A DNA stretch of 33,152 bases, taken from contig CAJXMG010000031.1 in NCBI GenBank assembly GCA_913056395.1, positions 1-33,152 on the forward strand. The letters run 5' to 3'. The stretch is from an uncultured bacterium (lineage in GTDB: Bacteria; Planctomycetota; UBA8108; UBA1146). Every line of letters begins with the position of its first letter. The first letter of the stretch is position 1. This document shows, one piece after another, positions 18,122-33,152 of this stretch. The notes beneath the pieces are model-generated. The model had not been told where the DNA came from and did not search any database. It was given only the letters and a program-made list of their open reading frames with translations. A program made the position numbers and the translations under genes.

Positions 18122-18431
18122 TCGGGTGCCCAAGTTTAGGGCAATTTTTGAGCGGCCATACTCAACCGACAAGATTTGATGAAGACCGCAACCTCCAAAA
18201 TCAAAAAGTCGAGATAGTCACTGTATTTAAGCCGCTCCTACCTCATTGCAGCCTCAAGAATCTTCACACTCTTTGACTCTTGGGTTCACATAAATTTACT
18301 CACTCGTTGTCCTTGGCTTTTCCAGAACTTAACACCAGTACTGTCTATTAATGGGGCCGGAAGCCGTCGTCTTCCGAGAGTTCAATAGGTTTAGCCAAAC
18401 AGATTCTGTCCGACTTATGAGGAGGATCAAA
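18122..18431 (+). promoter_or_regulatory. Leader and candidate promoter of the 1990-residue protein gene
   Basis: A 310 bp gap without a gene. A possible promoter is TTGACT at 18273-18278, then 16 bp, then TTTACT at 18295-18300, giving a leader of about 125 bases. A 6-bp hairpin (CGGAAG 18358-18363 with CTTCCG 18371-18376) lies in that leader. A very strong ribosome site GAGGAGG ends 7 bases before ATG 18432. An upstream in-frame ATG at 18351 has no ribosome site and would place 27 polar residues ahead of the signal peptide. Confidence 0.5.
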
Positions 18432-21400
18432 ATGTCAAAGTATTGTTATAGAGTTGCATCAGTGTCCCTGGCACTGCTTGTTGCATTTCTATATTTCGGA
18501 ATCAACAGCGTTCAAGCCGGAGACAGTGTCTATCTCAATGAAATCAGAATAGACAATCCGGGAGCGGATACTGAATTTGTGGAGATTAAAGGTTTCCCTG
18601 GAACCACTCTCAACAACATTTTTTATATTGTGATCGGTGATGGTACCGGCGGCTCAGGTGTTGCCGAAAGAATCGTTGATCTTTCGGGCAATGTGATTGG
18701 TGCCAATGGAATCTATGTCGCCGATGGTTTCAGTATTGAAAACAGTGACAACCTGACACACCTTCTTGTTGTGGGTCAGCTGGATGCCCTCGGCGCTTCG
18801 CTAATGGTTTCTGAGCAGACCGATCTTGATCTCGATGACGACGGTGTCCTGGATTTGGTTGTGGATACCGATGGCGATGCTGTTGCGGATGCTCTTGCAT
18901 GGGTCGCCGTTCTCGATTCCGTTTCCACTGTGGAGACTTTTGATATTCCCGCTTCAGGTGAATACATTTACTCAACCACAACTGTCGGTCCCGACGGTAC
19001 TTTTCCTCCCGGGGCGATTCGTCGTTGTGGTCAGGGTTGGTTGATCTCTGATTTCGGTGGTGCAGACGATACTCCCGGAACTGAAAACATCTGTCCTGCT
19101 GAGGATTGCACCGACACCCTCGACAATGATGGAGACAACCTGATCGACTGTGATGATCCGGATTGCTTTGGCAATGCGGCCTGTGTGACACCAGCTCTCA
19201 GTGCCAACAGACTTGGCCTTGAAGTTCTTGGTTCATACACCACTGGTATCTTTGACGAGAGCGCTGCAGAGATCGTGGCCTACGACGCTGCTTCCGGAAA
19301 AGTCTTTGTGACCAACTCCGACAGCGGTTCAGTAGACGTTCTTCAACTGGATGCCGCAGGTAATCTGACAAAGATCAATACTCTGGCTGCTGCTGGTGCT
19401 CCGACTCATGTACGGGTTTGGGATGATGCTGGCACGAGCCGCATTGTCGCTTCTGTTCCTTCCGCTGTGTCCACGGATCCCGGAAAGCTTCAGGTCTTCG
19501 ATATTCCTGGCTCTGCTTACTCTGGGACTCCGATTCTCAGTGAGATTCGGATTGACCAGTCTGGTGCGGATAATGATGAGTATGTGGAAATCGCGGCGGC
19601 TCCCGGTACGGATCTGACGGGATTGACCTATGTGGTGATCGGTGATTTCCCTTCCGGCACAATCGAGACTGCAATCAGCCTTGATGGCCAAGTCGTCCCC
19701 GCAGATGGAACCTTCTTGATCGCGGAGACCTCCTTCACTTTGGGAACTGCAGATCTGACGGTTCCTTCGAATGATCTCAATCACGAGAACAGCCAGAATA
19801 GTACCTACTTTCTGGTCACCGGTTTTGCCAATGCTGTGGGTGACAATGTTGATACTGCTGGCGACGGTGTTCTGGAGTGGGGAGCCACAGTTGTTGACAG
19901 TGTGGCCCTGGTCGAGGATCCACTGGATGCAAATGGTCAAACGACCGCTGGTAACCTGATTTACTCCACCACCGTAGTCGGCCCTGATGGAACATTTGTT
20001 CCCGGACACGTTTCACGTTGTGGCAGTGATGGACCTGTGGCGGGTGACTGGATCGTCAGCGATTTCGATATTGCAGAGGGAACTGATACTCCTGGTTCAG
20101 CCAATGTTTGTGCAATCGCTACTTATGCTACGGGCGCTCTCCCTGATATGGTTTTCGTCTCAGGGAACTACGCACTTACGGCCGACGAAGGTGAGCCGAG
20201 TGGCGCTGTCGATCCGGATGGATCTGTAACAATTGTCGACCTGATGGCCGGCACCACCTCGACAGTCACATTTGATAGCCTGAATGGCACTGAGGATGCT
20301 CTTCGTGCACAAGGCATTCGGATTTTCCCCGGCAACTCCGCCAGTCAGGATCTGGAGCCGGAGTACATTGCTGTTTCGCCAGATGGAGCCACTGGCTATG
20401 CAGTGTGTCAGGAAGCGAACGCCGTGGTCGTCTTTGATATTGCCACTGCTTCCTTCACTGAGATAGTCGCATTTGGCCGTAAAGATCACTCCTTGCCCGG
20501 TAACGAGTTGGACCCGAGTGATCGTGACTCCGGCATCAATATCGGTAACTGGCCTGTACTTGGCATGCACATGCCAGACGCCGCCGTGGCCTACGGTGCC
20601 AATGGAAACACCTACCTCGTGACAGCCAACGAGGGAGATGCCAGAAGTGAGGATGAGCGGATTGAGGACTTCGTTCTCGATCCGACTGTTTTCCCCAATG
20701 CCGCTGATCTTCAGCAGCGTTCACAGTTGGGTCGCCTGGGAGCCTCCACCATCGATGGTGATATTGACGATGACGGAGACTACGATGAACTTCACGTTTA
20801 CGGTGCCCGTTCTTTCTCGATCTGGGATATGAGCAACGGCGGAGTTCTCGTCTACGATTCCGGCAGTGAGCTGGAGCGTGTCGTTGCCGGGTATGATTCT
20901 TTCGATTTCAACTCCAACAATGATGAGAATGACTCCTTTGAGAGCCGTTCTGATAACAAGGGTATCGAGCCTGAAGCTGTCACCATCGGTGAAATCAATG
21001 GCCGTACTATCGCTTTTGTTGGTGCTGAACGTCAAGGTGGCATTTACCTCTACGACGTCACAGATCCGGCGAACTCCTATCTGTTGAGTTACACCAACAA
21101 TCGTGACTTCAGCGGTAATGCTGAAGCAGGTACTGCCGGCGACCTTGGGCCTGAAGGCATCGTCTTTGTTCCCGCAGATCAAAACCCGACTGGATCCGCC
21201 ATCATCCTGGTGGCCAATGAGGTTTCCGGTTCGACCACGGCCTACCGTATCGTCGAGTTGCCGGATCAGGATTTGAGAACCGAGAGCAAAGAGGCTGAAT
21301 CTACCAAGTTGACCGATATCAGTGTTTATCTCGATAGTTACGGTGCCGATGTTGACGCATACAGTTACGGTGCCTGTCAGGATTCCACTCAGTTGAGCCT

Positions 21401-24400
21401 GGTTTCCGTCACCACCGGATCTGGTGTTGGAACACCTGAATTTGCCAACTACGAGGTCGTTGCCGGTGGATACACCGTTGGCGTTGTCATGTCTCTTGGC
21501 AGCAGTGGCTTGACGATTGCTCCGGGCTTCGGAATCGAGACGACCGTCGCCACTTACGATGTACTGGGTGCTGCTGGTTCGACCACCAGCATCGACATCT
21601 GTAATACGCTGGGATCTCCTGCTGTTGAAGCTTTGGCTGTTGCCGGTGGGGCTACCGCCGCAACCGGCGTAATCTCCGGTGAAGTAAGAATCATTGCACC
21701 GATTCCGGATTTCCAGTTTGCGATTGCTGATGCAACCGGTGAATACGGTACGGATGGAAATGGTACCGTAGCCACCTCGGTCAGCATTACCCAGACTTCC
21801 TCTGTGGCACCGATCGCCACGAGTGGATTCTCCATGGGAGTGCGCAATGAAGTTGCTGCCATGGCCGCCAAGGCTGTGACCGAACCGGTTCCGGGCGCTG
21901 CTCAGTTCTTCACCTCTTCCATTCTGGGTGGTGGTTGGACTCTGGGAGTCGTTTACGACTTCAATGGTGTCACCACGCTCAGTTACGAAGCGGAAACCAC
22001 GGTTGCCAATGTGGAGTACTCCCTGACCGGAGGATTGGCAGGTTCGACCGACACGGTGACGACAGATCTTGCTTTCGCTGACGATCTCGGGTCCCCGGCA
22101 GTCGAGAACCTGGTGACCTTCCCAGACGGAAGCACCCAGGCGCCGATCCTGGTGGGTGCTGCGGTGACTCTTTCACCGGCTCCTGCACCGTTCACCTACA
22201 CAATTGGCAATGCCAATGCTGAGTTTGATTCTCTCGGTGCCGGATCTTTTGCAACCAATGTCGCCCTCGCCCAGACCGCTGCTTCTGCCATTTCTGTGAG
22301 TGGTTTCTCACTCGCCGTGGCGCATGACCCGGTCGAGTTGCAGGCCCTTGGGGCAGATGCCCACCCGGATCTTGGATCACTCAATGGTGGCTCAGGGCCG
22401 GACTTCTTCCAGGCGACGATTGGCGCCAATGGTATGGCCATCGGCTGTATCTTTGACTTTGACAATGCCGAGCCTGTTGATTACTCCAGCGCTGCTGGTG
22501 TTGTGGTCCTCAACTACTCCTTGACCGGAGCTCAGGCTGGAGGACCCGGGGGAAGCACCACCCTCGCCGTGGTCAACGGATTTGGATCTCCTGCCACTGA
22601 TTCGCTGGTGACGGACTCCCTGGGTGTGACCTACCCGGCGGAAGGAGTGGATGGTGTAGTTACCCTGACCCCGCCGCCTCCTCCGTTTACTTTGACGGTG
22701 GCGGATGCCTCGGGTGTCTATGATGCCACCGGTTCCGGATCTGTTTCTGCTGCCCTCAGTATCGATCAGACCGGGACCATCGCTGCCAGCGGTTTCAGTG
22801 CCGCCGTCGCCCACAGCAGTGTTCAGCTTGAGGCAGACAGTGTCGTTGCCGGTTCTGGACTGTCGGGATTGAACAGCGGTGCGGGTCCTGACTTCTTTGA
22901 GGCCAGTCTGCTTTCCGGTGGGGTCACTGTCGGTTGTATCTTCAGCTTCGGCAACGGTGCTGGTAGCGACCAGATCACCTTCGCCGGTGAAGAAGTTGCT
23001 GTCGTCAACTACGCTCTGACCGGATTCAATGCCGGTAGCAGTGCCACTGTGACGACCGATTTGACCGTCACTGACGGCCTTGGCAACCCTGCTGTTGATA
23101 ACCTGGTGACGGATGCCGCTGGCGTGACTTACGCCATGGCTGGTGTGGATGGAACCGTGACTCTGTCTCCGGCACCCTCGCCCTTCGAGTTTGTCGTGGG
23201 CAATGGAAGCGGTGAGTACAACGGTACCAACGGTCAAGGATCCGGATCCACCTCTGTGGCGATTTTCCAGAACTCCGGTTCGGCGATCCCTCTCAGTGGA
23301 TTCCAGATGTCTCTTGAATGGGATGCCAGTGTGCTTTCCGTTGCGGCGATTTCACAAGGAGCTGCTCTTTCTGCCCTCGACGCCGGTGCTGGAGCTGAGT
23401 TCTTCCAGGCTTCGATTGCCGGTGCCACGGCAACTGTGGGTTGTGTCTTCGATTTTGACGGTGCAGAGCTTCTCGATTTCACCTCGGCTGCAGATGTGGT
23501 CGATCTGGCCTTCGACGTCAATGTGGCTGCCGGATCCACCAGCGTGATTTCCGCCGACGTGAGCATTGATTCCGAGGGTTCTGTCGAAAATCTGGTGAGC
23601 GATGCGGCTGGTAACACCTTTGACGCCGCAGGTTTCAATGGTTCTGTCACGGTTAACCCGGCGGCTCCGATCTTTACCTTCGCCGTCCCTGCAAGCACAC
23701 TTGTCGAGACAGGCGGAACGGATGTTGCCGTCTCCATTGAGGATCTCTCAGGCAGCACCGCTGTTGCTGGATTCTCCATGGGTATCAGTTACGACACTGC
23801 GGAGTACGACTTCGGAAGTGCAACCCCTGCCGGAGCTCTGGCAGCCGTCAGAGCGGGAGCCGGCCCGGAGTTCTTCGAGTCAAACGCCCTCGCTGACGGG
23901 GTGACGATCGGTTGTGTGACAGATTTCAGTGGTGTTGATACCGTGAACTACGCCACCTCTGAAACGGCCGTCAATCTGAACCTGGCTCTTTCTGCCACGG
24001 CTACAGGTGGGGTGACCGCTATCGATTTCACCGACAATCTGGGCGCACCTTCGGTACCGAACGTGGTCAGTGGATCTGACGGAACGACCTATGTCGCCTC
24101 TGGCGTTGGTGGAGAGCTTGCGGGTAGCACCGCAGTCGCCTTCCGTCGTTCCGATTGCAATACTGACGGGTTGATTGACATTGCCGACGGTATTTACACG
24201 CTCAACTTCCTCTTCCAGGGCGGATCTGCCGGAGAGTGTTTCGGGGCTTGTGATACCAACGCAGACTCAGTGATCGACGTTGCGGATGCCATTTACACCT
24301 TCACTTACCAGTTCAGTTCCGGCCCGATGCCGTCTGCTCCCTTCCCCGATTGTGGCGTGAGCCCCTCCGGTGAAGAGTGCAACAGTTATGATGGAGGGTG

Positions 24401-24404
24401 CTGA
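18432..24404 (+). CDS. Giant secreted protein: LTD, choice-of-anchor I propeller, six cohesin-like modules, dockerin-like tail
   Basis: Product of 1990 residues from ATG 18432 (strong GAGGAGG). A signal peptide (about 1-28, ending VQAG) is followed by a lamin-tail-like domain (about 32-220) and a Cys/Asp-rich loop (CTDTLDNDGDNLIDCDDPDC, about 225-250). A choice-of-anchor I beta-propeller runs over about 257-943, with hallmarks GIFDESAAEIVAYDAASG, DLEPEYIAVSPDG, FGRKDHSLPGNELDPSDRD, YLVTANEGDAR, YGARSFSIWD and DLGPEGIVF. A second lamin-tail-like domain (about 367-560) interrupts the propeller. Six cohesin-like modules of about 135-165 residues each (959-1903) follow, then the dockerin-like pair (DCNTDGLIDIAD, DTNADSVIDVAD) and the tail SAPFPDCGVSP with another two Cys. 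It is probably a cell-surface or matrix protein. No catalytic residues are assigned. It ends at a strong terminator. Confidence 0.92.
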   Translation: MSKYCYRVASVSLALLVAFLYFGINSVQAGDSVYLNEIRIDNPGADTEFVEIKGFPGTTLNNIFYIVIGDGTGGSGVAERIVDLSGNVIGANGIYVADGFSIENSDNLTHLLVVGQLDALGASLMVSEQTDLDLDDDGVLDLVVDTDGDAVADALAWVAVLDSVSTVETFDIPASGEYIYSTTTVGPDGTFPPGAIRRCGQGWLISDFGGADDTPGTENICPAEDCTDTLDNDGDNLIDCDDPDCFGNAACVTPALSANRLGLEVLGSYTTGIFDESAAEIVAYDAASGKVFVTNSDSGSVDVLQLDAAGNLTKINTLAAAGAPTHVRVWDDAGTSRIVASVPSAVSTDPGKLQVFDIPGSAYSGTPILSEIRIDQSGADNDEYVEIAAAPGTDLTGLTYVVIGDFPSGTIETAISLDGQVVPADGTFLIAETSFTLGTADLTVPSNDLNHENSQNSTYFLVTGFANAVGDNVDTAGDGVLEWGATVVDSVALVEDPLDANGQTTAGNLIYSTTVVGPDGTFVPGHVSRCGSDGPVAGDWIVSDFDIAEGTDTPGSANVCAIATYATGALPDMVFVSGNYALTADEGEPSGAVDPDGSVTIVDLMAGTTSTVTFDSLNGTEDALRAQGIRIFPGNSASQDLEPEYIAVSPDGATGYAVCQEANAVVVFDIATASFTEIVAFGRKDHSLPGNELDPSDRDSGINIGNWPVLGMHMPDAAVAYGANGNTYLVTANEGDARSEDERIEDFVLDPTVFPNAADLQQRSQLGRLGASTIDGDIDDDGDYDELHVYGARSFSIWDMSNGGVLVYDSGSELERVVAGYDSFDFNSNNDENDSFESRSDNKGIEPEAVTIGEINGRTIAFVGAERQGGIYLYDVTDPANSYLLSYTNNRDFSGNAEAGTAGDLGPEGIVFVPADQNPTGSAIILVANEVSGSTTAYRIVELPDQDLRTESKEAESTKLTDISVYLDSYGADVDAYSYGACQDSTQLSLVSVTTGSGVGTPEFANYEVVAGGYTVGVVMSLGSSGLTIAPGFGIETTVATYDVLGAAGSTTSIDICNTLGSPAVEALAVAGGATAATGVISGEVRIIAPIPDFQFAIADATGEYGTDGNGTVATSVSITQTSSVAPIATSGFSMGVRNEVAAMAAKAVTEPVPGAAQFFTSSILGGGWTLGVVYDFNGVTTLSYEAETTVANVEYSLTGGLAGSTDTVTTDLAFADDLGSPAVENLVTFPDGSTQAPILVGAAVTLSPAPAPFTYTIGNANAEFDSLGAGSFATNVALAQTAASAISVSGFSLAVAHDPVELQALGADAHPDLGSLNGGSGPDFFQATIGANGMAIGCIFDFDNAEPVDYSSAAGVVVLNYSLTGAQAGGPGGSTTLAVVNGFGSPATDSLVTDSLGVTYPAEGVDGVVTLTPPPPPFTLTVADASGVYDATGSGSVSAALSIDQTGTIAASGFSAAVAHSSVQLEADSVVAGSGLSGLNSGAGPDFFEASLLSGGVTVGCIFSFGNGAGSDQITFAGEEVAVVNYALTGFNAGSSATVTTDLTVTDGLGNPAVDNLVTDAAGVTYAMAGVDGTVTLSPAPSPFEFVVGNGSGEYNGTNGQGSGSTSVAIFQNSGSAIPLSGFQMSLEWDASVLSVAAISQGAALSALDAGAGAEFFQASIAGATATVGCVFDFDGAELLDFTSAADVVDLAFDVNVAAGSTSVISADVSIDSEGSVENLVSDAAGNTFDAAGFNGSVTVNPAAPIFTFAVPASTLVETGGTDVAVSIEDLSGSTAVAGFSMGISYDTAEYDFGSATPAGALAAVRAGAGPEFFESNALADGVTIGCVTDFSGVDTVNYATSETAVNLNLALSATATGGVTAIDFTDNLGAPSVPNVVSGSDGTTYVASGVGGELAGSTAVAFRRSDCNTDGLIDIADGIYTLNFLFQGGSAGECFGACDTNADSVIDVADAIYTFTYQFSSGPMPSAPFPDCGVSPSGEECNSYDGGC
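21306..24140 (+). repeat. Six tandem cohesin-like modules within the giant protein
   Basis: Module borders by reading frame are 21306-21707, 21708-22187, 22188-22682, 22683-23180, 23181-23669 and 23670-24140. Modules 2-5 begin at a PF[TE][YLF] or DFQF motif. Shared marks are SGF[SQ]M or SGFS near the start, GPDFF/GPEFF/GAEFF, a TVGCIF.F strand, LG.PAV.NLV and a closing G.V.G strand. Modules 3 and 4 are most alike, which suggests recent duplication; the first and the last are the most diverged. The same module occurs at 1-405 and twice in the 16853-18121 product. Confidence 0.85.
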
Positions 24405-24555: not shown

Positions 24556-25518
24556 CTAGGTCAGCTGGTTTCGCAGGCAGGAAGGAAGATCGGGGTACCG
24601 GAATCGGTATCCACAGGCTTCCAGCTTTTGGGGAACGACCCGGGCTCCATCGACGACCAGTGCCTGACCCATTTCACCATAGAGGGTATTCAGGGCGAGG
24701 GCGGGAACTCGGGGTGCGACCGGCCTGCCCAGCTTGGAGGCGAGGATGGTCGTGAAGTCTTCATTGCGAACAGCTCCAGGGGCGGTGCAATTGATGGGGC
24801 CGCTCAGTTGATCGTCCCGAAGGACCCGCAGGATGATCTGCAGAAGATCGTCGAGGTCGATCCAGCTCATCCATTGGCGTCCACTTGAAATGGGGCCGCC
24901 GAGGAAGGCCTTGAAGATGGGGAGCAGTTTCTGGAGAACCCCACCGCGGGGAGTCAGCACCAGTCCGATTCGCAACAGTGCCCGACGGATTCCCGCCTCC
25001 TCCAGGGGTTGGGATGCGTTTTCCCAACCGCTGCAGACTTCACCCAGGAAGCCGCCGATGAAGGGGGTTTCCTCGGTCTGCGGATGAGGCAGTTTCTGGT
25101 CGTAGCCGCCGATGGCGCTGGCGGAAATGAAGTGTTTTGGCGGAGATTCCAGCTTGAGAAGGAGTTCACTCAGGTTGGCGGTCGCGGTTTCCCGGCTTTC
25201 GCGGATGCGTTTCTTGCGGGCGGCATTCCAGCGGCCGCCGGCGATGTTTTCACCGGCCAGATGAATCACCGCATGCAGATTTTCAAAGGCCCGGCGTTCT
25301 TCTTCCGGGATCTCCCCGGCGGGGACCAGAGGCTGCCAGCGAACTTCATCCGGAGATTGGGGAGCCCGGCGGACGGCGCGCAGAACCCGGTAGCCCTGTG
25401 CCTGGAGCAAGGGAGCAAGAGCACTGCCCACCACACCGGATGAGCCTGTTAAAAGAATCGCCTCACCACTCTGGGGAAGAGTGGTGAGGTCGGACTCGTG
25501 GGGGTGTGTTTGGGACAA
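24556..25518 (-). CDS. TIGR01777 family NAD(P)-dependent epimerase (extended SDR)
   Basis: Product of 320 residues. The N-terminal Rossmann motif LLTGSSGVVGSAL (about 22-34) binds NAD(P). Family marks are HLAGENIAGGRWNAARKKRIRESR (about 90-113), SASAIGGYD (about 132-140), LRIGLVLTPRGG and the WIDLDDLLQII segment. The C terminus has the small DUF1731-like part (PVAPRVPALALNTLYGEMG). The start is TTG 25518, 14 bases after the regulator stop on the same strand, with no clear ribosome site; no better in-frame start exists before the Rossmann motif. TIGR01777 epimerases often accompany LitR/CarH-type regulators and light-induced lipid genes. The substrate is unknown. A perfect 12-bp inverted repeat lies in codons 10-20. 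Confidence 0.88.
   Translation of the reverse strand: MSQTHPHESDLTTLPQSGEAILLTGSSGVVGSALAPLLQAQGYRVLRAVRRAPQSPDEVRWQPLVPAGEIPEEERRAFENLHAVIHLAGENIAGGRWNAARKKRIRESRETATANLSELLLKLESPPKHFISASAIGGYDQKLPHPQTEETPFIGGFLGEVCSGWENASQPLEEAGIRRALLRIGLVLTPRGGVLQKLLPIFKAFLGGPISSGRQWMSWIDLDDLLQIILRVLRDDQLSGPINCTAPGAVRNEDFTTILASKLGRPVAPRVPALALNTLYGEMGQALVVDGARVVPQKLEACGYRFRYPDLPSCLRNQLT
25461..25489. repeat. Perfect 12-bp inverted repeat in the epimerase 5' end
   Basis: Arms CCTCACCACTCT (25461-25472) and AGAGTGGTGAGG (25478-25489) with a 5-base centre. It is 30-58 bases inside the epimerase gene. In mRNA it would fold into a stable hairpin just after the start codon; as DNA it would be a good dimer-protein site. 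No T run follows on either strand. Confidence 0.7.
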
Positions 25519-25532
25519 GAGAACTCTGATTT

Positions 25533-26405
25533 CTAGATGTTGCTGGGAGAGAGCAGCCTCTCGCAGAACGCCCTGAACTGTTTCAGGGAGCGGAACTCAA
25601 TCAGGTTCGGGACAGGCCGGCGTGAAAGTTTGCCGGTCTGTCTACCACCGACGGCGAGAAGAACCCCGAGGGAATGAAGCTCTTCTGCCACCGCGTGAAT
25701 CTTCCGCTGCAACATCGGGATCGGGTCACTGGACGTCGTCGACAGCCACGCAATGTGCGGTCTCTCTTTACGACAGTATTCAACCAATGCCTCGAGGGGA
25801 AGGTCGGGGCCCAGATTGATGGACTTGTGTCCAAGATCCTGAACGATCAGGGAGACCATGGTCGTTGGAATTCGATAGGGGTCTCCGGAGGGTGCACCAC
25901 CTGCAGCGAGAACTCTTCCTTCTGCTGTCGGGAGCAAATTCTTCAGTGTTCCCAGGGTTTCCAGAAGCATCTGCGTCGCAGCATGCTCGTTGGCGATACC
26001 AATGGGAGATTTCACCCACTGCATTCCCAGTCTTGCGATCACCGGGGTTACCACGTCTTCCATCAGCTCGACGATGGGCATTCCGGAGAGGAACAACCCA
26101 AGGACGATTCGCTGGGATTCAGCCAGATCCTGGGCCTCGAGAGCCTGGTGCAGGATCTCGAAGGGCTCGCGCCCTCCGATCAGCCCGGAAGGCTCAATGG
26201 GCTCCGGAAGGCCGATGGACTCAGGATTGCGGAAGGGGATGCCCAGATCACGGGACATCTTGATCGCTTCCGAGATGCTGAATCGACGGTGGCCACCGCG
26301 GGTGCGGTCACTTTTGAGGATCCCCTTGTCGGACCAACGCTTCAGGGTCGAGGGGCTCACGCCGAAAGCGTTTGAGAGAATGGTGGGTGAGATGTAAGTA
26401 TTCAT
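25533..26405 (-). CDS. CarH/LitR-type MerR regulator with altered cobalamin-binding domain
   Basis: Product of 290 residues from ATG 26405. An N-terminal MerR helix-turn-helix (about 1-50, SPSTLKRWSDKGIL and RTRGGHRRFS) is followed by a four-helix B12-cap domain (about 80-160) and a Rossmann-like B12-binding domain (about 164-285). Trp130, Glu140 and His141 form the Wx9EH motif that contacts adenosylcobalamin in CarH. The lower-axial His of CarH (about 177) is Tyr here: the loop reads SGDPYRIP where CarH-type proteins have a [E/D]xH motif. In known members, B12 in the dark makes a DNA-binding tetramer and light releases it, turning on carotenoid, photolyase or lipid genes. It sits beside such lipid genes, so it is their likely regulator. 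Whether it still binds B12 is doubtful. Longer in-frame starts exist at 26414 and 26441, but both lie inside the promoter described below. Confidence 0.88.
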   Translation of the reverse strand: MNTYISPTILSNAFGVSPSTLKRWSDKGILKSDRTRGGHRRFSISEAIKMSRDLGIPFRNPESIGLPEPIEPSGLIGGREPFEILHQALEAQDLAESQRIVLGLFLSGMPIVELMEDVVTPVIARLGMQWVKSPIGIANEHAATQMLLETLGTLKNLLPTAEGRVLAAGGAPSGDPYRIPTTMVSLIVQDLGHKSINLGPDLPLEALVEYCRKERPHIAWLSTTSSDPIPMLQRKIHAVAEELHSLGVLLAVGGRQTGKLSRRPVPNLIEFRSLKQFRAFCERLLSPSNI

Positions 26406-26441
26406 GCCCTTAAGCATAGTGAACGATTTGAACGATTTCAA
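26406..26441 (-). promoter_or_regulatory. Candidate leaderless promoter with tandem operator repeats
   Basis: Read on the - strand: TTGAAA (26441-26436), 17 bp spacer, TATGCT (26418-26413), then 7 bases to the regulator ATG. Transcription would start at or next to the ATG, so the message would be leaderless. The 9-bp sequence GAACGATTT (+ strand) occurs twice back to back at 26421-26438 and fills the spacer, the usual binding place of MerR-family proteins. Direct-repeat operators are known for CarH. This fits autoregulation. Confidence 0.6.
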
Positions 26442-26484: not shown

Positions 26485-26650
26485 GATGGCTTTAATCGGC
26501 TTTTTAGGGGTTCATGAGCGTTTCTGGTAATAAAAAGACATGGAAAATTGAGGGACGTTTTAGGTGATTTTTGGGCGAAATTCGTTCAGCTCACCCTTCG
26601 TCAGGGGGATGGGGAAGGGATGTGGAAAGCCACAGAAAAAATGCGGAAAG

Positions 26651-26689
26651 AAATTACAGAGAGAAATTACAGAGAAAAATTACAGCGAG
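26651..26689. repeat. Three tandem 13-bp repeats across the methyltransferase stop codon
   Basis: Units at 26651-26663, 26664-26676 and 26677-26689, consensus AAATTACAGAGAG with one change in each of the last two units. The stop codon of the - strand methyltransferase (26680-26682) lies in the third unit, and each unit contains TTA (TAA on the - strand). It looks like slipped-strand duplication at the gene end. Confidence 0.8.
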
Positions 26690-27960
26690 GGAAGCAACGG
26701 CTCTGTCGTCGCGCCGGATCTTTCCATGATCAACTGGGCATCGCCGATGGTTCGTTCCGCAAATCCACCTTCACAATAGCAAAGATAGAAATCCCACAAT
26801 CTGACAAAGGCATCATCCAGTCCCAGGGCTTTGACCTCATCGATTCGTGCGTGCACATTCTGTCGCCACTCCGCAAGAGTTCTCACGTAGTGCGAACCGA
26901 TCTCTTCCAGATGGACCAGTCTCAAATCGGAACTCTCTGCGGCGGCGGAAAGGAGTGCCGAGACAGAGGGGATGCAACTTCCAGGGAAGATGTAACGCTT
27001 GATAAAGTCGACTTCACGGGAAGCGGTTTCAAACCGGTGATCCTGAATGGTGATGCTTTGCAGGGCGAGACGTCCACCCGGTCGCAGAAGTTTTCCACAA
27101 CGATTCCAGAAGGTCCGGAATTGATTTTTCCCGATGGCCTCGATCATCTCCACGCTGACGATCTTGTCGTATTGCCCGTCGAGGTTTCGATAGTCTTCCA
27201 ACCGGAGGTCAATCTGATCCTGCAGCCCGCATTCGTCGATGCGCTGGCGCGCCATTCGATGTTGCTCTTTGGAAATGGTCGTCGTCGTCACCTTGCAGCC
27301 ATAGTTCTTGGCAGCGTGGATGGCCAATCCGCCCCAACCGGTACCGATCTCAAGGAGGTGGTCATCCCGATTCAGGTACAGTTTGCGGCACAGGCGATCC
27401 ATCTTCTCGACACTCGCTTCTTCCAGGGTCGAGGAGGGGCTTTCGAAGATGCCACAGGAATAGGCCATCGTCGGATCGAGCATCATCTCAAAGAAATCGT
27501 TGGAAAGGTCGTAGTGGGCTGAGATGTTCTTCCGCGCCCCCTCCAGGGAGTTCCAGTTCAGCAGGTGGTAGGCCCACAGGAACGGCTTGGAAAGCCACTG
27601 GAGACCACTGTCCATCGAGTCAACGGAGTCGAGGTTTCTCGCCAGAATCCGGACCACTGCAGTCAGATCATCGGTTTGCCACCAGCCGGCGACGTAGGCT
27701 TCGGCAGAGCCCACCGACCCGCGCAACATGGTGCTCCGATAGAAGCGACCGTCGTGGACCTCAATGGTTGCCTCAAGGCCATCCTCTGCCGGATTTCCCA
27801 GAGTCGTCTTTTTCGATCCTTCGCAAACATGGAGGAGTCCAGACTTGATCGATCCGAGGGATTTGAGCACCAGGCTGCGGGCGATGCTGCCGCTGACCGG
27901 ATTGGAAGAAGGGTTCGGTACCTTCGATGGGGATGAATCGGTGGTCGTCGGTGTGCTCAT
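26680..27960 (-). CDS. CFA-synthase-like SAM-dependent fatty-acyl methyltransferase
   Basis: Product of 426 residues, typical CFA family length. An N-terminal lipid-binding part (about 35-135) leads into the conserved NISAHYDLSNDFFEMMLD segment (145-162), YSCGIF with Cys169 (equivalent of E. coli CFA Cys139), the SAM motif EIGTGWGGLA (204-213), EMIEAIG with Glu274, and YIFPGSCIPS (323-332). The position of the bicarbonate-binding His of E. coli CFA (LHTI) is Gln301 here (LQSITI). The family methylates double bonds of phospholipid acyl chains. The Gln suggests that the product may be a methyl-branched chain, as in furan fatty acid pathways, rather than a cyclopropane; this is an inference. The start overlaps the DUF1365 stop (ATGA). 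It is the last gene of the lipid operon before the regulator. Confidence 0.9.
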   Translation of the reverse strand: MSTPTTTDSSPSKVPNPSSNPVSGSIARSLVLKSLGSIKSGLLHVCEGSKKTTLGNPAEDGLEATIEVHDGRFYRSTMLRGSVGSAEAYVAGWWQTDDLTAVVRILARNLDSVDSMDSGLQWLSKPFLWAYHLLNWNSLEGARKNISAHYDLSNDFFEMMLDPTMAYSCGIFESPSSTLEEASVEKMDRLCRKLYLNRDDHLLEIGTGWGGLAIHAAKNYGCKVTTTTISKEQHRMARQRIDECGLQDQIDLRLEDYRNLDGQYDKIVSVEMIEAIGKNQFRTFWNRCGKLLRPGGRLALQSITIQDHRFETASREVDFIKRYIFPGSCIPSVSALLSAAAESSDLRLVHLEEIGSHYVRTLAEWRQNVHARIDEVKALGLDDAFVRLWDFYLCYCEGGFAERTIGDAQLIMERSGATTEPLLPSL

Positions 27961-28766
27961 TTGATTTCAGCCTTTTCCTGATCACTATCCTGAGCGTTCA
28001 ACGTATCAGGATGAGGAATGTAGGGAATACCCTTGAGTCTTAATTTTGCTGCTTGCCAGTAAATGCCCAGCCAGCCCGCCAGAGTGACACACGGATTGCG
28101 CAGCAGAACCCGGGTCATGTTCTTGCGATTCCACTCCAGTCTTTCTCCGGAGAGTCGCGCTTCGAAGACTTTTCGACCCTCACTGAAATTCTGCATCCAC
28201 ACCGAAAGAGATTCGGTGGGTTCCGAAAAACCCCAGTCATAGGTGTGATCCATTTTGAAGAAGGGAGAGACATGGAAAGACTTTTCAAACCTCTGATGGG
28301 TCAGGGAGTCAGCGGAAGGCTCGGGTCTCTGGTCGGTCACATAGGAGTGACGCTCCAGCCAGGGAGTGTTGGTGATTTCTGAAACCACGGCCTGCAATCG
28401 GGTTCCCGATTCGTCGAAACAGTAATAGAAGGACACGGGGTTGAAGACGTATCCGAAGTACCGCGGGTGGGTCAGCAGCCTGACCGGGCCGGTCGGGCGG
28501 AAACCCAGATCCTCTTCCACCCGATCCAGAACCACTTCTTTCATGGCGATGGAGTGGTCACCGATGTAATCGGAGCGGCGAAAGCTGACGACATTACCCT
28601 TCTCCAGCGACCACAGGGGGTGAAGCTGGAACAGTTCCGGAATCTCGTCGAGATCGATGTACAGGTGGTGAATCTTGTAGCGGAAGCGATTTCGCTTGGG
28701 CGTGAAGCGGTCATGCTCCACATGGCCGACGTAGATGGCACTTTGGAGTTTGGTATCAGCCGGCAT
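27957..28766 (-). CDS. DUF1365 protein
   Basis: Product of 269 residues from ATG 28766, chosen because GGAGGAG lies 8 bases upstream; an in-frame ATG at 28805 has no such site. The DUF1365 signature is clear: SAIYVGHVEHDRFTPKRNRF at the start, HHLYIDLDEIPEL, then LLTHPRYFGYVFNPVSFYYC and later ITNTPWLERHSYV and FHVSPFF. DUF1365 genes nearly always lie next to an FAD oxidoreductase and a CFA-like methyltransferase, as here, and take part in stress-linked lipid modification, but the reaction is not known. It overlaps the upstream oxidoreductase gene by 11 bases and the downstream methyltransferase gene by 4. Confidence 0.92.
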   Translation of the reverse strand: MPADTKLQSAIYVGHVEHDRFTPKRNRFRYKIHHLYIDLDEIPELFQLHPLWSLEKGNVVSFRRSDYIGDHSIAMKEVVLDRVEEDLGFRPTGPVRLLTHPRYFGYVFNPVSFYYCFDESGTRLQAVVSEITNTPWLERHSYVTDQRPEPSADSLTHQRFEKSFHVSPFFKMDHTYDWGFSEPTESLSVWMQNFSEGRKVFEARLSGERLEWNRKNMTRVLLRNPCVTLAGWLGIYWQAAKLRLKGIPYIPHPDTLNAQDSDQEKAEIK

Positions 28767-30036
28767 CGCTGAACTCCTCCAGCCCTCGGCCAAATTTTTG
28801 GGCAACCCGCATACCGCTCACCACACCGTCTTCATGGAAACCGTTGGCCCAGTAGGCACCACAAAAGTGCACTCCGTGAATGCCATCGATTTCCTCATGT
28901 CGAGACTGGGCAGCGATGGCCCGGTTATCGAAGAGGGGGTGTTCATAGACCATCTCCTCGATCACTTTTTCCCGCTGGATCCCCAGCTCCGCATCGGGGC
29001 CGGGATCATTGAGGGTGACGACGTAATCCCTTGGAGCCTGGTCAAAACCCTGAAGGCTGTTCATCCAGTAACTGACGAGCAGGTCCTTTTGTCGGGAACC
29101 GGTTTTGACATTCCATGCAGCCCATGCTCGTTTCCGTTTTGGAAGCAGGCGAGTGTCATGGTGAAGAGTGGTCGGATTTTTGGAGTATTTGAAGTTGCCG
29201 AGAACATCTCTTTCAGCCTCAGTGGCATCGGAAAGCATTCGCAGCGCCTGATCGCCATGACAGGCGAGAATGATTTTGTCGAAGGCGGTTTCCTCACCCG
29301 CGGAGGTTTTCAGGAGAGGCTTGCCATCCTTTCGGCGAATCGACTCGACAGGAGTATTCAGGTGAATCCTGTCTGCGAAGGGACGGGTCATCGGTTCGAT
29401 ATATGACCAGGATCCACCTTTGACCGTTCTCCAGATCGGCCGCCCCGAGATTTTCAAAAAGCCGTGATTGTCGAAGAAGCGAATCAGGGACAGAAGCGGG
29501 TAATCCCGGATCTCAGTCAGTGAGGTGGACCACACCGCTGCTGCCATCGGGATCAGATGATCGTCGATGAAGGATTTCGAATAGCCCTGTGCATCGAGCC
29601 ATTCTCCGAGTCGCGTATCTGATGAAATGGTGCTCTTCAGATCCTGTGCCGAGCGGTAGAAGCGCAAGATACCGCTGATCATCGACCAGAAGCGGTATCG
29701 CAGCAGATTAGTCGGTTGGGCGAGGAGACCAGCCAGATTTGTAGCGTTGTATTCAAAGTCCGACTCGGGATTGAACACACTGAAAGACATGTTCGATTCA
29801 CGGCTTTCCACTCCCAACCGATCGAAGATCTCGATCAGGTTGGGGTAGGTCTTTTCATTGAAGACGATGAAGCCGGTGTCGACGGGACGGGTGCCACCCT
29901 CTTCCTCGACAGGGATGGTGTGGGTGTGACCACCTATGTAGTCTCCCGCCTCAAATACATGAATGTCGTGTTCACGGCAGAGCATGCGTGAGCAGACAAG
30001 TCCGGAGATTCCTGTTCCAACGACGGCGATCTTCAT
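28756..30036 (-). CDS. FAD-dependent amine-oxidase-like oxidoreductase
   Basis: Product of 426 residues. The N-terminal dinucleotide motif VVGTGISGLVCSRML (about 4-18) with downstream HVFEAGDYIGGHTHT (31-45) is the FAD-binding pattern of the amine-oxidase/phytoene-desaturase-like superfamily. DTGFIVFNEKTYPNL (about 53-67) is the usual second motif of this subfamily, and the C-terminal FCGAYWANGFHEDGVVSG closes the FAD site. It is the standard partner of DUF1365 and CFA-like genes and probably oxidises or reduces an acyl chain intermediate. The exact substrate is unknown. The start overlaps the desaturase stop (ATGA). Confidence 0.92.
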   Translation of the reverse strand: MKIAVVGTGISGLVCSRMLCREHDIHVFEAGDYIGGHTHTIPVEEEGGTRPVDTGFIVFNEKTYPNLIEIFDRLGVESRESNMSFSVFNPESDFEYNATNLAGLLAQPTNLLRYRFWSMISGILRFYRSAQDLKSTISSDTRLGEWLDAQGYSKSFIDDHLIPMAAAVWSTSLTEIRDYPLLSLIRFFDNHGFLKISGRPIWRTVKGGSWSYIEPMTRPFADRIHLNTPVESIRRKDGKPLLKTSAGEETAFDKIILACHGDQALRMLSDATEAERDVLGNFKYSKNPTTLHHDTRLLPKRKRAWAAWNVKTGSRQKDLLVSYWMNSLQGFDQAPRDYVVTLNDPGPDAELGIQREKVIEEMVYEHPLFDNRAIAAQSRHEEIDGIHGVHFCGAYWANGFHEDGVVSGMRVAQKFGRGLEEFSDAG

Positions 30037-30974
30037 GGGGCCCTGGAGGACTCGCGAACACCCTCTGGTATCTGTTTGAGACCGCTGACCAATCCAACAC
30101 AGGATCCGAGCCAGAGAATGTAGTAGGTGATGTCAAACTCCCACCAGTAGAACCCCTGACGTGCAGTGTGTTGGTAATGGTGGTGATTGTTGTGCCAGCC
30201 TTCACCGAGGGTCAGGATCGCGAGAAACCAGTTGTTGCGGCTGTCATCCCCGGTTTCGTAGCGTGTGGATCCCCATCTGTGAGCCAGGGAATTGATCGTG
30301 AAGGTGCCATGCCAAAGCAGAACCGTTGAGACGAAGCCTCCCCAGACCAGCATCTGCCAGCCATTGGTACCCAGCTCAGGAGAGTATGTCGCCAGTACGT
30401 CACCGATCAGGTAACACATGCCCCAATAGAGCAGAGGGACCACGTAGTCATAGCGGTCGAGGAATCGGAGTTCCGGGTAACGATTCAGATCCTTGACCAA
30501 CTCTTCCTTGATCGGGAAATTCTTGTCGGCAAGGAACCACAAAACATGGCTCCACCAGAAACCATCCTGTTTGGGTGAATGGGAATCGACCGGTTCGTCG
30601 CTGTGACGATGATGGTGCCGATGATGCGAGGCCCACCAGATCGGTCCCCGCTGGGCAGAACTGGCTCCGAGAACCGCGCCCAGAAATTGAACGACTCGCG
30701 AAGTGCGAAAAGTACGGTGCGAGAAGTAGCGGTGGTAGAAGCCTGTGATGCCAAACATTCTGACAAAGTAAAACAGGACACAAAGCCCGATGGCGATGGG
30801 ACTGACCCCGACCCAATAAAGGGAAATCAGGGCCAGGTGACTGAGCCAGAATGGACTCGATCGCAACCAGTCGATGTGCCTGGGATCCTTGTCCCCGGAG
30901 GCTTCAAAGGTCGAATTGTCAAAAGCAGCTTTGAGGTGGTAGGTCAAACTGCGGTTTTTGGTTTTTGGATTCAT
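30033..30974 (-). CDS. Membrane fatty-acid desaturase (acyl-CoA/lipid delta-9 type)
   Basis: Product of 313 residues. Three histidine boxes bind the di-iron centre: HRYFSH (81-86), HHRHHHRH (117-124) and HNNHHHYQH (261-269, in GEGWHNNHH). Hydrophobic membrane pairs lie at about 42-75 and about 175-230. The pattern matches stearoyl-CoA desaturase-like enzymes that use O2. In the operon it would create the double bond that the CFA-like enzymes modify. It is 7 bases after the CNMT-like gene and overlaps the oxidoreductase gene. Confidence 0.94.
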   Translation of the reverse strand: MNPKTKNRSLTYHLKAAFDNSTFEASGDKDPRHIDWLRSSPFWLSHLALISLYWVGVSPIAIGLCVLFYFVRMFGITGFYHRYFSHRTFRTSRVVQFLGAVLGASSAQRGPIWWASHHRHHHRHSDEPVDSHSPKQDGFWWSHVLWFLADKNFPIKEELVKDLNRYPELRFLDRYDYVVPLLYWGMCYLIGDVLATYSPELGTNGWQMLVWGGFVSTVLLWHGTFTINSLAHRWGSTRYETGDDSRNNWFLAILTLGEGWHNNHHHYQHTARQGFYWWEFDITYYILWLGSCVGLVSGLKQIPEGVRESSRAP

Positions 30975-30981
30975 GATCGTT

Positions 30982-32010
30982 TTACTTTTTTAACAGGAAG
31001 TGTGAGACGCCCCACTGTTCGCCATTTTGGTAACCAAACAGTTCTGAGCAGGCGATGAAGAAGATTCTCCAGCGGTGGAACCAGCGTTTGGCCTCACGAT
31101 GGCCGTATGTACTCTCAAGAATCGGCATGATTTCTGACCGCTGCTTGTGCATGTTCTCCAGCCAGTGATCCGATGTTTTCTGGTAGTGAGTACCGTTCAC
31201 AAACCACGATGACTCCAGGTTGAGTGGAGTTTGCAGGCAATCAAAGATTTGGTGGCTCGGCATCATTCCTCCGGAGAAGAAGTGTTTGGCCATCCACTCA
31301 TCATCATTTTCCTTGAGAAAGTGGTAAGCGTGGATTCGGTGGCTGAAGACGTGAAGGAACAGTTTTGCCCCTTCTGCCATGACTCCGTTCAACTTGGAGA
31401 TCAACAGCTCCCAATTCTTCATGTGTTCAAACATTTCGACTGAGACGACCCGGTCAAACTCGCCTTCCGGCTCAAAGTCATTCATGTCACAGGTCTGAAC
31501 CTGAAGATTTTCCAGATTTCTCTCTGCAGCCTGTCCATCGATCCACGCTTTTTGTGAAGCGGAGTTGCTGACGGAGTGAATGGTGGCATTGGGGTAGTGC
31601 TCCGCCATCCAGAGTGAGAGGGAGCCCCAACCGCAGCCCAACTCAAGAATCCGCATCCCGTCCTCGATCTGGGCTCGCTCGCACGTGAGACGGAGCATCG
31701 TCGCTTCCGCCTGATCGAGGGTGTCGCCGGGGTTCTCGTAATAGCAGGAGGAGTATTTACGATGTTTTCCCAGAACGTGACCAAAGAAATTCGCCGGAAC
31801 TTCGTAATGTTGTTCATTGGCCAGTTCGGGAACTTCTGCAATTGGGGACTGTCGAAGGGTGTCGACGAACCGTTGTAAAACAGTGGCGTGGTTTCCGGCG
31901 GCTTGCTCTTCCGACTCTTGCAACCGTTCGCGAACCTGCCCATGAACTCCGAAGCGGATCACGGATTCAGGAAAGACTCCCCGTTCAGCGAGGTCGATGG
32001 CTAGGGACAT
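30982..32010 (-). CDS. CNMT-like SAM-dependent methyltransferase (CFA superfamily)
   Basis: Product of 342 residues with GAGG 8 bases before ATG 32010. It resembles plant (S)-coclaurine N-methyltransferase-like proteins more than bacterial CFA: NEQHYEVPANFFGHVLGKH (about 65-83), KYSSCYY with Cys89, SAM motif LELGCGWGSLSLWMAE (122-137), VSVEMFEHMKNW, FSGGMMPSHQ, SSWFVNGTHYQKTS and the end FFIACSELFGYQNGEQWGVSHF. Such proteins belong to the same superfamily as CFA synthases. In this operon the acceptor is probably a lipid chain rather than an alkaloid, but that is inferred from context. It is the first gene of the lipid operon. Confidence 0.9.
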   Translation of the reverse strand: MSLAIDLAERGVFPESVIRFGVHGQVRERLQESEEQAAGNHATVLQRFVDTLRQSPIAEVPELANEQHYEVPANFFGHVLGKHRKYSSCYYENPGDTLDQAEATMLRLTCERAQIEDGMRILELGCGWGSLSLWMAEHYPNATIHSVSNSASQKAWIDGQAAERNLENLQVQTCDMNDFEPEGEFDRVVSVEMFEHMKNWELLISKLNGVMAEGAKLFLHVFSHRIHAYHFLKENDDEWMAKHFFSGGMMPSHQIFDCLQTPLNLESSWFVNGTHYQKTSDHWLENMHKQRSEIMPILESTYGHREAKRWFHRWRIFFIACSELFGYQNGEQWGVSHFLLKK

Positions 32011-32216
32011 TTTAATTTCCTCACTCCAGTAAGACGGATCAGATCAGCAGATCATCCCGAAGATGTCCCGGCAGGGCAAGATCAGAATACAGGCCCCATC
32101 GGTTTGTATTTATTTGACCCTGTGACTCCCAATTCGGTGCAGGGTCTGATCAATTGGAGGCACGGGTCCGCATAATCAAGGCTGACCACGCAATCAGACC
32201 TCCGAGGAGAACAGTT
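32011..32216. promoter_or_regulatory. Divergent promoter region of the lipid genes
   Basis: 206 bp between the - strand lipid operon and the + strand DUF2878 gene. An inverted repeat of 7-bp arms (GACCCTG 32116-32122, CAGGGTC 32140-32146) with a 17-base centre is visible, and AGATCA recurs between 32035 and 32085. No hexamer pair with good spacing is convincing on either strand. The GAACGATTT repeat found at the regulator gene does not recur here. Confidence 0.45.
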
Positions 32217-32786
32217 TTGAAAAAAAGTGTCGTGATCTCTGCCCTGCTTTACTACGCCGGTTGGTTGGGAGCGATTCTGGGGGCCGCCCAGGGTGAGCCT
32301 TTGGTGGGTTCTATGACCGCAATGGCGATTTTGCTGATCGGTTTGATTCAGGGGGGGCGACCGGAGGTTGGCTTTGCCGGTTTGGCGCTCTTGCTGGGAC
32401 TGGGGTTCGAAACCCTGCTTCTGGAACTGCAATGGGTGGCCTATTCACCGGAGGTGAAGAGCCCCCTGGGGTGGAATCCTCCCATCTGGATGCTGCTCCT
32501 GTGGCCTCTTTTGATGCGCACCCTCGCCGATGGGCAGTGTCTGGCGTGGACCAAGGGCCGCTGGGTGATTTGCATCATCTTCGGAGCGGTGGGTGGGGGC
32601 CTCGCCTACTACGGAGGGCAATCGTTAGGGGCACTCCAGTTTCTGCAAGAAGACAAAATCATGACCGCGATCGGAATCGGGTTCGGCTGGGGAATCCTCT
32701 TCCCTGCAATGGCGATGGGTCGGCAATACATGGAAACACAAATGTTCATGAGTGATTCGAATTTGAAGGAGAAGAAAGATGACTGA
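32217..32786 (+). CDS. DUF2878 membrane protein
   Basis: Product of 189 residues from TTG 32217, chosen because GAGGAG lies 8 bases upstream; an in-frame TTG at 32154 would add 21 polar residues. Five to six membrane helices fill the protein (VVISALLYYAGWLGAILGAA, SMTAMAILLIGLIQGG, VGFAGLALLLGLGFETLL, WMLLLWPLLM, WVICIIFGAVGGGLAYYGG, IGIGFGWGILFPAMA). DUF2878 and DUF1295 genes are frequent partners in lipid clusters with CFA, DUF1365 and FAD oxidoreductase genes. Function unknown. Its stop overlaps the next gene by 8 bases. Confidence 0.82.
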   Translation: MKKSVVISALLYYAGWLGAILGAAQGEPLVGSMTAMAILLIGLIQGGRPEVGFAGLALLLGLGFETLLLELQWVAYSPEVKSPLGWNPPIWMLLLWPLLMRTLADGQCLAWTKGRWVICIIFGAVGGGLAYYGGQSLGALQFLQEDKIMTAIGIGFGWGILFPAMAMGRQYMETQMFMSDSNLKEKKDD

Positions 32787-33152
32787 AGTCGGGGAGACCG
32801 TACTTTTCGGCTGGCTGATTCTGGCGGTCGTCATGCACCTTCTTTGGATGTGGCAGAAGAAGACAGGGCGGGCGGGGTTTGTCGACGTGGCCTGGTCACT
32901 GGGGACTTCAGCTCTGGCCATCGGATTTTGTGTTGTTGGAAGTGGGCTTCAGGAACGTCGTCTGATTCTTGGCGTGTTGATGGGGCTGTGGGGGTTGCGA
33001 CTCACGGCCCACTTGTGGAATCGTCTGTCGCGAGAGAAAGAGGACGGTCGCTACGAAAGCTACCGCAAGGAAAAGGGGCAAAAGGCGGCGGACCGTTTCT
33101 ACATGATCTTTTTCCAAATGCAGGCTGTATTCGCTCTCATATTTGCCAGCCC
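32779..33152 (+). CDS. DUF1295 membrane protein, 5' part
   Basis: ATG 32779 opens a frame that runs off the end of the window after 124 codons, so the C-terminal half is missing. AAGGAGAAG lies just upstream. The first helix (LFGWLILAVVMHLLWMW), the motif GRAGFVDVAWSLGTSALAI and GLWGLRLTAHLWNRLSREKEDGRY are the DUF1295 signature (steroid-5-alpha-reductase-like fold), with the Tyr/Arg-rich segment YESYRKEKGQ. DUF1295 proteins are predicted lipid or sterol-type reductases of the inner membrane. It overlaps the DUF2878 gene by 8 bases. Confidence 0.88.
   Translation, partial: MTEVGETVLFGWLILAVVMHLLWMWQKKTGRAGFVDVAWSLGTSALAIGFCVVGSGLQERRLILGVLMGLWGLRLTAHLWNRLSREKEDGRYESYRKEKGQKAADRFYMIFFQMQAVFALIFAS

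Follow-up and report, generated by a model that had tools for sequence, protein, structure and literature searches.

The window, that is, the whole 33,152-nucleotide stretch of DNA analysed here, carries a gene for a MerR-type regulator, with an oxidoreductase gene downstream, a run of lipid-enzyme genes upstream and an operator-like repeat directly ahead of it (Table 1). The open frame, strand and coordinates given for the regulator in the preliminary description are correct. An ATG at 26405 was taken as the start codon over a TTG at 26441; the ATG is favoured because the promoter-like TTGAAA-N17-TATGCT occupies 26441–26413.

Table 1. Features of the window at and around the regulator gene.
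Feature	Position	Strand	Basis or remark
TIGR01777 family oxidoreductase	24556..25518	-	same strand, 14 bp past the regulator
Tyr-type CarH/LitR-like MerR regulator, 290 aa	25533..26405	-	open frame, domain matches, alignments
Codon of Trp220	25746..25748	-	family-specific, two before the SxT motif
Codon of Tyr177	25875..25877	-	lower-axial His column; alignments and family conservation
Codons of Glu140-His141	25983..25988	-	Wx9EH
Codon of Trp130	26016..26018	-	Wx9EH, upper-face cap
Promoter-like site TTGAAA-N17-TATGCT	26413..26441	-	encloses the repeat
Operator-like tandem 9-bp direct repeat AAATCGTTCAAATCGTTCAC	26419..26438	-	
Cyclopropane-fatty-acyl-phospholipid synthase (CFA) family (UfaM/CFA-like)	26680..27960	-	
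DUF1365 protein (UfaO-like)	27957..28805	-	
FAD-dependent amine-oxidase-family protein (putatively UfaD-like)	28756..30036	-	
Fatty acid desaturase	30033..30974	-	
Second CFA-synthase-family methyltransferase	30982..32010	-	
DUF2878 protein	32154..32786	+	
DUF1295 protein	32779..33152	+	cut by the window end

The regulator is composed of a MerR domain, a CarH-type cap and a B12-type Rossmann domain. The MerR domain matches PF00376 at 33.7 bits (cut-off 28.2), and the protein thus shares the N-terminal MerR domain of CarH and class I LitR. Among the other Pfam families, B12-binding_2 scores narrowly below its cut-off (22.4 versus 23) and B12-binding far below (21.4 versus 32.1); the NCBIfam CarH equivalog, with 54.1 bits against a cut-off of 400, does not cover the protein. 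The chain stops at residue 290, ∼36 residues past the GG motif, and so has no C-terminal biliverdin-binding domain of the photocobilin type. AlphaFold models of the full protein and of its cap-Rossmann part, each built from seven near-identical rows, had mean pLDDT values of 54.6 and 53.5 with the Tyr177 region below 50, and were not used. The protein is encoded at 87–99% identity in six named metagenome-assembled genome records, Planctomycetota or unclassified, whose names, such as TMED53, suggest a marine origin.

The neighbours, which the preliminary description had called lipid genes of the light/oxidative-stress type, are confirmed by domain matches. In Rhodobacter, furan fatty acids are made by the methyltransferase UfaM together with UfaD, which binds NAD/FAD, and UfaO, a DUF1365 protein (PMC7380195), and the RpoE singlet-oxygen regulon includes phrA, cfaS, RSP_1090/1091 and the fasciclin gene RSP_1409 (PMC7074977). 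The gap between the CFA gene and the regulator (26640–26700) contains a short imperfect tandem repeat of GAGAGAAATTACA-like units. Further along the window, 18351–24404 is an open frame of 2017 residues with repeated domains and a dockerin-like end, as judged by eye, which probably encodes a large secreted protein. Rfam searches gave no match in the window or in the locus of a second family gene of the same genome (L115, see below).

Tyr177 in the lower-axial column of a Planctomycetota clade

As first described, the upper-face motif Wx9EH of the four-helix cap is formed by W130, E140 and H141, close to the numbering of Thermus CarH (W131/E141/H142/H177; PMC11796333), and Y177 lies within SGDPYRIP with Pro180 in place of the next Gly. 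Pairwise, multiple and profile-profile alignments agree that this CarH-like protein has Tyr in the lower-axial column. HMMER sets its GDPY opposite GERH of Thermus CarH and GDLH of CtMerR; when 21 other loci and the Thermus CarH and CtMerR chains are aligned together with it, Y177 stands in the His column; and the HH-suite comparison of 77 Tyr-family members with 13 His-type proteins places H over Y at a probability of 100. Another His as the lower-axial ligand, the outcome that the preliminary description had named as speaking against its proposal, was found neither by HMMER nor by HH-suite nor by counting: apart from H141 (His in 47/77), His occurs in at most 25 of the 77 members in any column of the cap or Rossmann domain.

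The motif D/ExHx2G/P is broken in the window protein at the lower-axial His, and the remaining B12 motif is present as P180-x41-S222-x-T224-x28-GG, the last gap being 28 residues versus 22–27. GMQW, EH and GPDLP of the SignatureFinder signature are also present, with GDPY instead of GxxH, so that three of its four elements are found. The lower-axial His counts as a hallmark of B12 photoreceptors and belongs to the signature with which one published study looked for them (GxxW, EH, GxxH, GxxxP; PMC11796333), so the Tyr family would escape that filter. No such family was found in the open-licence literature on CarH, planctomycetes and photoreceptors, which is weak evidence of absence.

The Tyr substitution is a trait of a whole Planctomycetota clade and no local oddity. 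A full-length relative scoring above 200 bits is encoded in 73 of 392 Planctomycetota genomes. Six-frame reading frames were used for the loci, longest-ORF calling having missed several focal genes (10 loci shown), and the 115 frames above 200 bits from the fetched loci were reduced to 77 members by dropping those contained in others or more than 97% identical. At position 177, 67 of these have Tyr, 3 have His and 7 have another residue (S, S, N, G, T, C, F); the comparison set, selected as His-type relatives, has His in 13/13. Frames at or below 200 bits were left out; two of them, in L133 (170 bits) and L113 (136 bits), carry Asp as residue 177 and have neither W130 nor E140, and would add to the non-Tyr side on which the pocket is lost.

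In a quick IQ-TREE analysis computed without column 177, a branch with SH-aLRT 94 sets the family apart from the other sequences, each of the three His members falls at a different place inside it, and the states of residue 177 require 10 changes. On this single quick tree, 36 of whose 87 inner branches are supported at less than 80, Tyr thus seems to be the ancestral state and His a later one. The window protein has all the features by which the clade is defined here, namely G169, GDxY, W220 and the upstream 9-bp tandem repeat. Another Tyr-type protein of the window genome (L115, 8962–9861) contains GDPYTLP and is 37% identical to the window protein. No Tyr member outside Planctomycetota was found in viral contigs, where the one match was confined to the DNA-binding part, or in the two plasmid records inspected (Caballeronia and Rhizobium, His in both); the plasmid search returned 27 records, none with 80% coverage, and a second, uninformative plasmid query, part of an L101 frame without Pfam match, returned none. 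The frame on the Rhizobium sp. TH2 plasmid (L190, 4910–5750), where the PLSDB table lists no feature, has a QRWVD recognition helix and the His-type GERH and is divergent from a fasciclin gene.

The best PDB match is CtMerR (8jbs/8jbt), a B12-dependent green-light receptor (PMC11796333), at 3.7e-25 with the protein and 1.6e-54 with the profile. It shares the KRWSD-type recognition helix, the cap, the Rossmann domain and the GDxx[H/Y] motif with the window protein, but has His (GDLH), binds AdoCbl and carries Cys at the position of W220. Thermus CarH and class I LitR have the same domain order, Wx9EH, GxxxP, SxT and GG at nearly equal residue numbers; in comparison with Thermus CarH, the window protein has Tyr for the lower-axial His, Pro for Gly, W220 and another recognition helix.

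Operator-like 9-bp repeats and a candidate regulon

The stretch directly upstream of the regulator is an island of conservation in the genus (TTGAAATCGTTCAAATCGTTCACTATGCT in the window), in which two abutting 9-bp repeats are flanked by promoter-like hexamers. A TTGAAA-N17-TATGCT-type site is weak taken alone (1 found versus 0.5 expected). The repeat recurs in the family. An unguided direct-repeat scan of 65 upstream regions gave four with period 9 against 0.4 expected from shuffles; these are the window and three others, all with WCGTYCA or nearly so. Matches to TCGTTCAAATCGTTCA at 12 or more of 16 positions were found in 27 of the 65 regions, the window included, versus 0.86 expected by first-order Markov resampling, and a weight matrix reached at least 12 bits in 39/65 versus 0.65 expected, a count favoured by training on the same regions; its scores across the regions leave the interval between 11.5 and 5.8 bits empty. 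Two head-to-tail 9-bp repeats (AAWCGTTCA) are likely the family's own operator, which would differ from the 11-bp tandem repeats of CarH and class I LitR. The CarH-type operator nnnnTnnACAn is not represented in the window by three tandem TnnACA at 11-bp spacing with at most one mismatch, and the class II LitR operator TGTACA-N12-TGTACA has two window matches at two mismatches (0.92 expected), none at the regulator promoter.

Over 1.08 Mb around 64 family loci, the matrix found 93 sites of at least 17 bits, versus 2 in one shuffled copy; 237 kb around 13 control loci that encode His-type proteins gave 1 site. Most of the 93 (72) lie near the start of a family frame and 13 near no labelled gene. 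The remaining ones are close to frames for fasciclin, photolyase, FAD-oxidoreductase, TIGR01777 or DUF2867, frequently within a divergent region that is shared, and sites apart from a regulator promoter include one at a photolyase gene (L081) and one at a fasciclin gene (L139). Position and co-occurrence suggest that the family protein binds the repeats, although another regulator of the same genes is possible.

With two mismatches allowed, the repeat occurs at four places in the window genome. Only one further copy of the 17-base repeat is exact (L166, 9732–9755, on contig G000:C12); it lies between an mtnA-like gene and a gene for a secreted-looking fasciclin-CIA30 protein and could control the former, the latter or both. 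A copy is present at this place in six of the seven genomes of the genus (exact in four, with one mismatch in two) and was not seen in the 83% complete G006. The window's only strong site is the regulator's own promoter, which would drive the TIGR01777 gene too; no copy of at least 9 bits precedes the lipid operon.

Within 6.5 kb of the 64 loci, a set of DUF1365, CFA and FAD-oxidoreductase genes was found in 14, photolyase in 9, fasciclin in 9 and TIGR01777 in 5 (photolyase and fasciclin were grouped by BLAST clustering, with two members and one member, respectively, checked in families). At least one of these four markers is present at 34 loci and none at 30. The marker-free loci would suit a redox or lipid-stress regulator without any light response, all the more as the light response of the family is itself predicted from sequence. 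Against such a regulator stand the photolyase genes at 9 loci, the DUF1365 lipid sets at 14 and the repeat copies at the photolyase genes of L081 and L111, and we regard it as very unlikely.

At the paralogue locus, the photolyase frame starts 4 bases ahead of the paralogue stop, with an uncertain TTG start, and scores 374 bits for TIGR00591 against a cut-off of 550. The region upstream of the paralogue has one 19.8-bit and one 14.4-bit repeat site. Over L115 7427–12509 (G000:C3), the paralogue is flanked by this photolyase frame and by a divergent gene of the SOUL heme-binding family; just past the trio is a hemB-like gene, as judged by eye. The arrangement resembles Vibrio VCA0056, a MerR-type gene beside phr with a blue-light response (PMC5241685), a likeness drawn from its description only.

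Pocket conservation and the candidate cofactor

Conservation was computed as relative entropy over 210 cap and Rossmann positions of the 77 members. W220 ranks first, followed by W130, Y177, D175 and P203; E140, G169, G199, G254 and H141 rank 9th to 13th, G127, G253 and S222 rank 16th, 17th and 19th, and G174 of GDPY ranks 43rd. Residue 141 is His in 47 members and Arg in 29. G127, E140, G199, P203, G253 and G254 are retained in all 67 Tyr members. Among the 10 non-Tyr members, G127 and G253 are kept in 7 (p = 0.0016 each) and E140 and P203 in 8 (p = 0.015 each), and W130 is retained in 8 versus 64 of 67 Tyr members (p = 0.08 without a gapped row), with kinship ignored in all these tests. The association of Tyr with a fully intact pocket, His members excluded, is weak (p = 0.067). 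The residues of GxxW, EH and GxxxP are kept by the Tyr members, so the light-responsive signature is intact except for the His.

The upper-face cap and the rest of the B12 motif, retained together with Tyr, argue for a cofactor that is still bound. Such retention is no proof of B12 use, because CarA functions independently of B12 although its B12 motif is intact. In the window genome, B12-binding domains occur in long frames whose size fits methionine synthase and mutases (enzyme names being tentative), and one PduO adenosyltransferase is encoded, so AdoCbl is probably available in the host. PduO is encoded in 69 of the 73 family genomes and in 206 of 319 others (p = 3e-8, ancestry ignored); the four family genomes without it all have B12-binding domains above the cut-off, and one has a BtuR-type enzyme. 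This association fits cobalamin use without proving it, since other B12 enzymes, encoded in 5/5 genomes checked, could explain the retention of PduO.

Residues other than His on the lower face have been described. A review from 2025 lists Cys, Arg and residues that are uncharged or hydrophobic, and its main text contains no word that starts with Tyr (PMC13331322); with Arg in this place, one cobalamin-domain protein bound OHCbl only, and neither AdoCbl nor MeCbl (PMC11796333). Mmp10 was considered as a precedent for Tyr-ligated cobalamin and dropped, its Tyr23 being on the upper side at 4.8 Å with Leu below (PMC8828468).

The main and strong rival is B12 independence. The cofactor would have been lost, the regulator would sense a partner protein or an oxidant, as in class II LitR/LOV and CarA/CarS, and Tyr177 and W220 would have a structural role, filling a pocket left vacant. 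The lower-axial His is gone in 74/77 members, and the bulky W220 stands where solved relatives have small residues. Regulation without B12 has precedents in class II LitR (PMC9758184) and in Myxococcus CarA, a CarH paralogue (PMC9304148). Class II LitR of Pseudomonas (PplR1, PmlR2) is a LitR/CarH-like repressor of light-response genes including photolyase and UfaM, similar genes that Pseudomonas thus runs without B12, and B12 use is not proven for it, as for the Tyr family. Both precedents differ from the Tyr family in what they keep. Class II LitR retains the helical part alone and has lost similarity in the Rossmann domain, whereas this domain of the window protein aligns with CarH, CtMerR and methionine synthase; in CarA the B12 motif is intact, His included, and the Trp is gone, the reverse of the window protein. 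W130, E140, P203 and GG are moreover among the most conserved positions and are retained with Tyr. A short LOV partner, as class II LitR has, is not apparent either: the strict LOV motif is present in 10 of the 392 Planctomycetota genomes and in none of the seven of the genus (G000–G006), although degenerate LOV domains or other partners would escape this search. Loss of the cofactor is a serious possibility, if a doubtful one, and a retained cofactor with a non-His lower face is modestly favoured.

The sharpest hallmark of the family is W220 (W in 75 and F in 2 of the 77 members), two positions ahead of S222. The aligned residue is Cys in 8jbs, Ala in 8j2w, 8j2x and 8j2y, Gly in 1y80 and Val in 3whp. 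In AerR, a conserved Gly and a Thr/Ser hydrogen-bond dimethylbenzimidazole (PMC9144470); the GG and S222 of the Tyr family are likely the counterparts of these groups, and W220 may fill the pocket of the nucleotide tail. The pocket could accordingly have been rebuilt for a cofactor that has no tail (for example heme, a porphyrin or an incomplete corrinoid); W220 would then stand in place of the tail, and Tyr177 would be an axial ligand or stacking partner. This would agree with the conservation of W220 alongside a strict G169 and with the SOUL-family gene adjoining the paralogue, and a B12-type domain that binds heme with an altered metal ligand is known, SCHIC of AppA (PMC9144470). SCHIC, however, has lost the Trp cap that the Tyr family keeps, has its His shifted by two and contains an added loop. 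The GG and S222, as likely tail contacts, are retained, and the placement of W220 in the tail pocket is tentative. A tail-less cofactor is unlikely.

We favour, at a probability of about 0.42, an autoregulated repressor of a light/photo-oxidative-stress regulon that has probably retained cobalamin without His ligation. Starting from what was computed directly (the Tyr position, its conservation, the upper pocket, the repeats and the neighbours), members of the clade would bind the two head-to-tail repeats over their own promoters and repress them, and would do likewise at photo-oxidative-stress promoters such as those of photolyase, furan-fatty-acid-type lipid enzymes and fasciclin. Cobalamin would lie under the W130/E140 cap, with Tyr177 toward the lower side of cobalt, where it would either ligate the metal as phenolate or plug the site and so hold cobalt five-coordinate. 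Light, or a light-made oxidant, would change the cofactor and thereby release the DNA. The preliminary description had offered a B12-independent regulator, Tyr ligation or another cofactor; none of the three is proved, while the Tyr substitution and the light/oxidative-stress neighbourhood that it pointed out have held and extend across the family.

A broader proposal, possible but short of probable, is a clade of light- or photo-oxidant-responsive repressors whose B12-type domain holds a tetrapyrrole by the conserved Tyr, either cobalamin in a Tyr-on state or a tail-less one with W220 in the nucleotide pocket. If true, the clade would represent a second chemical route to gene control of the CarH type and would use a 9-bp repeat operator of its own. 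If cobalamin is bound, the clade provides a natural test of how the lower ligand controls Co–C photochemistry; if none is bound, it is a clear example from nature of B12 loss throughout a large clade. In both cases, Planctomycetota gain a candidate light-stress regulon with a predictable operator, testable in cultured members.

Position 132, two residues after W130, is His in 23, Cys in 21 and Asp in 14 of the 77 members, and Lys in the window protein. Cys132 pairs with Arg141 (21 of the 29 Arg rows), and His132 or Asp132 with His141; residue 132 could be an alternative upper-face ligand.
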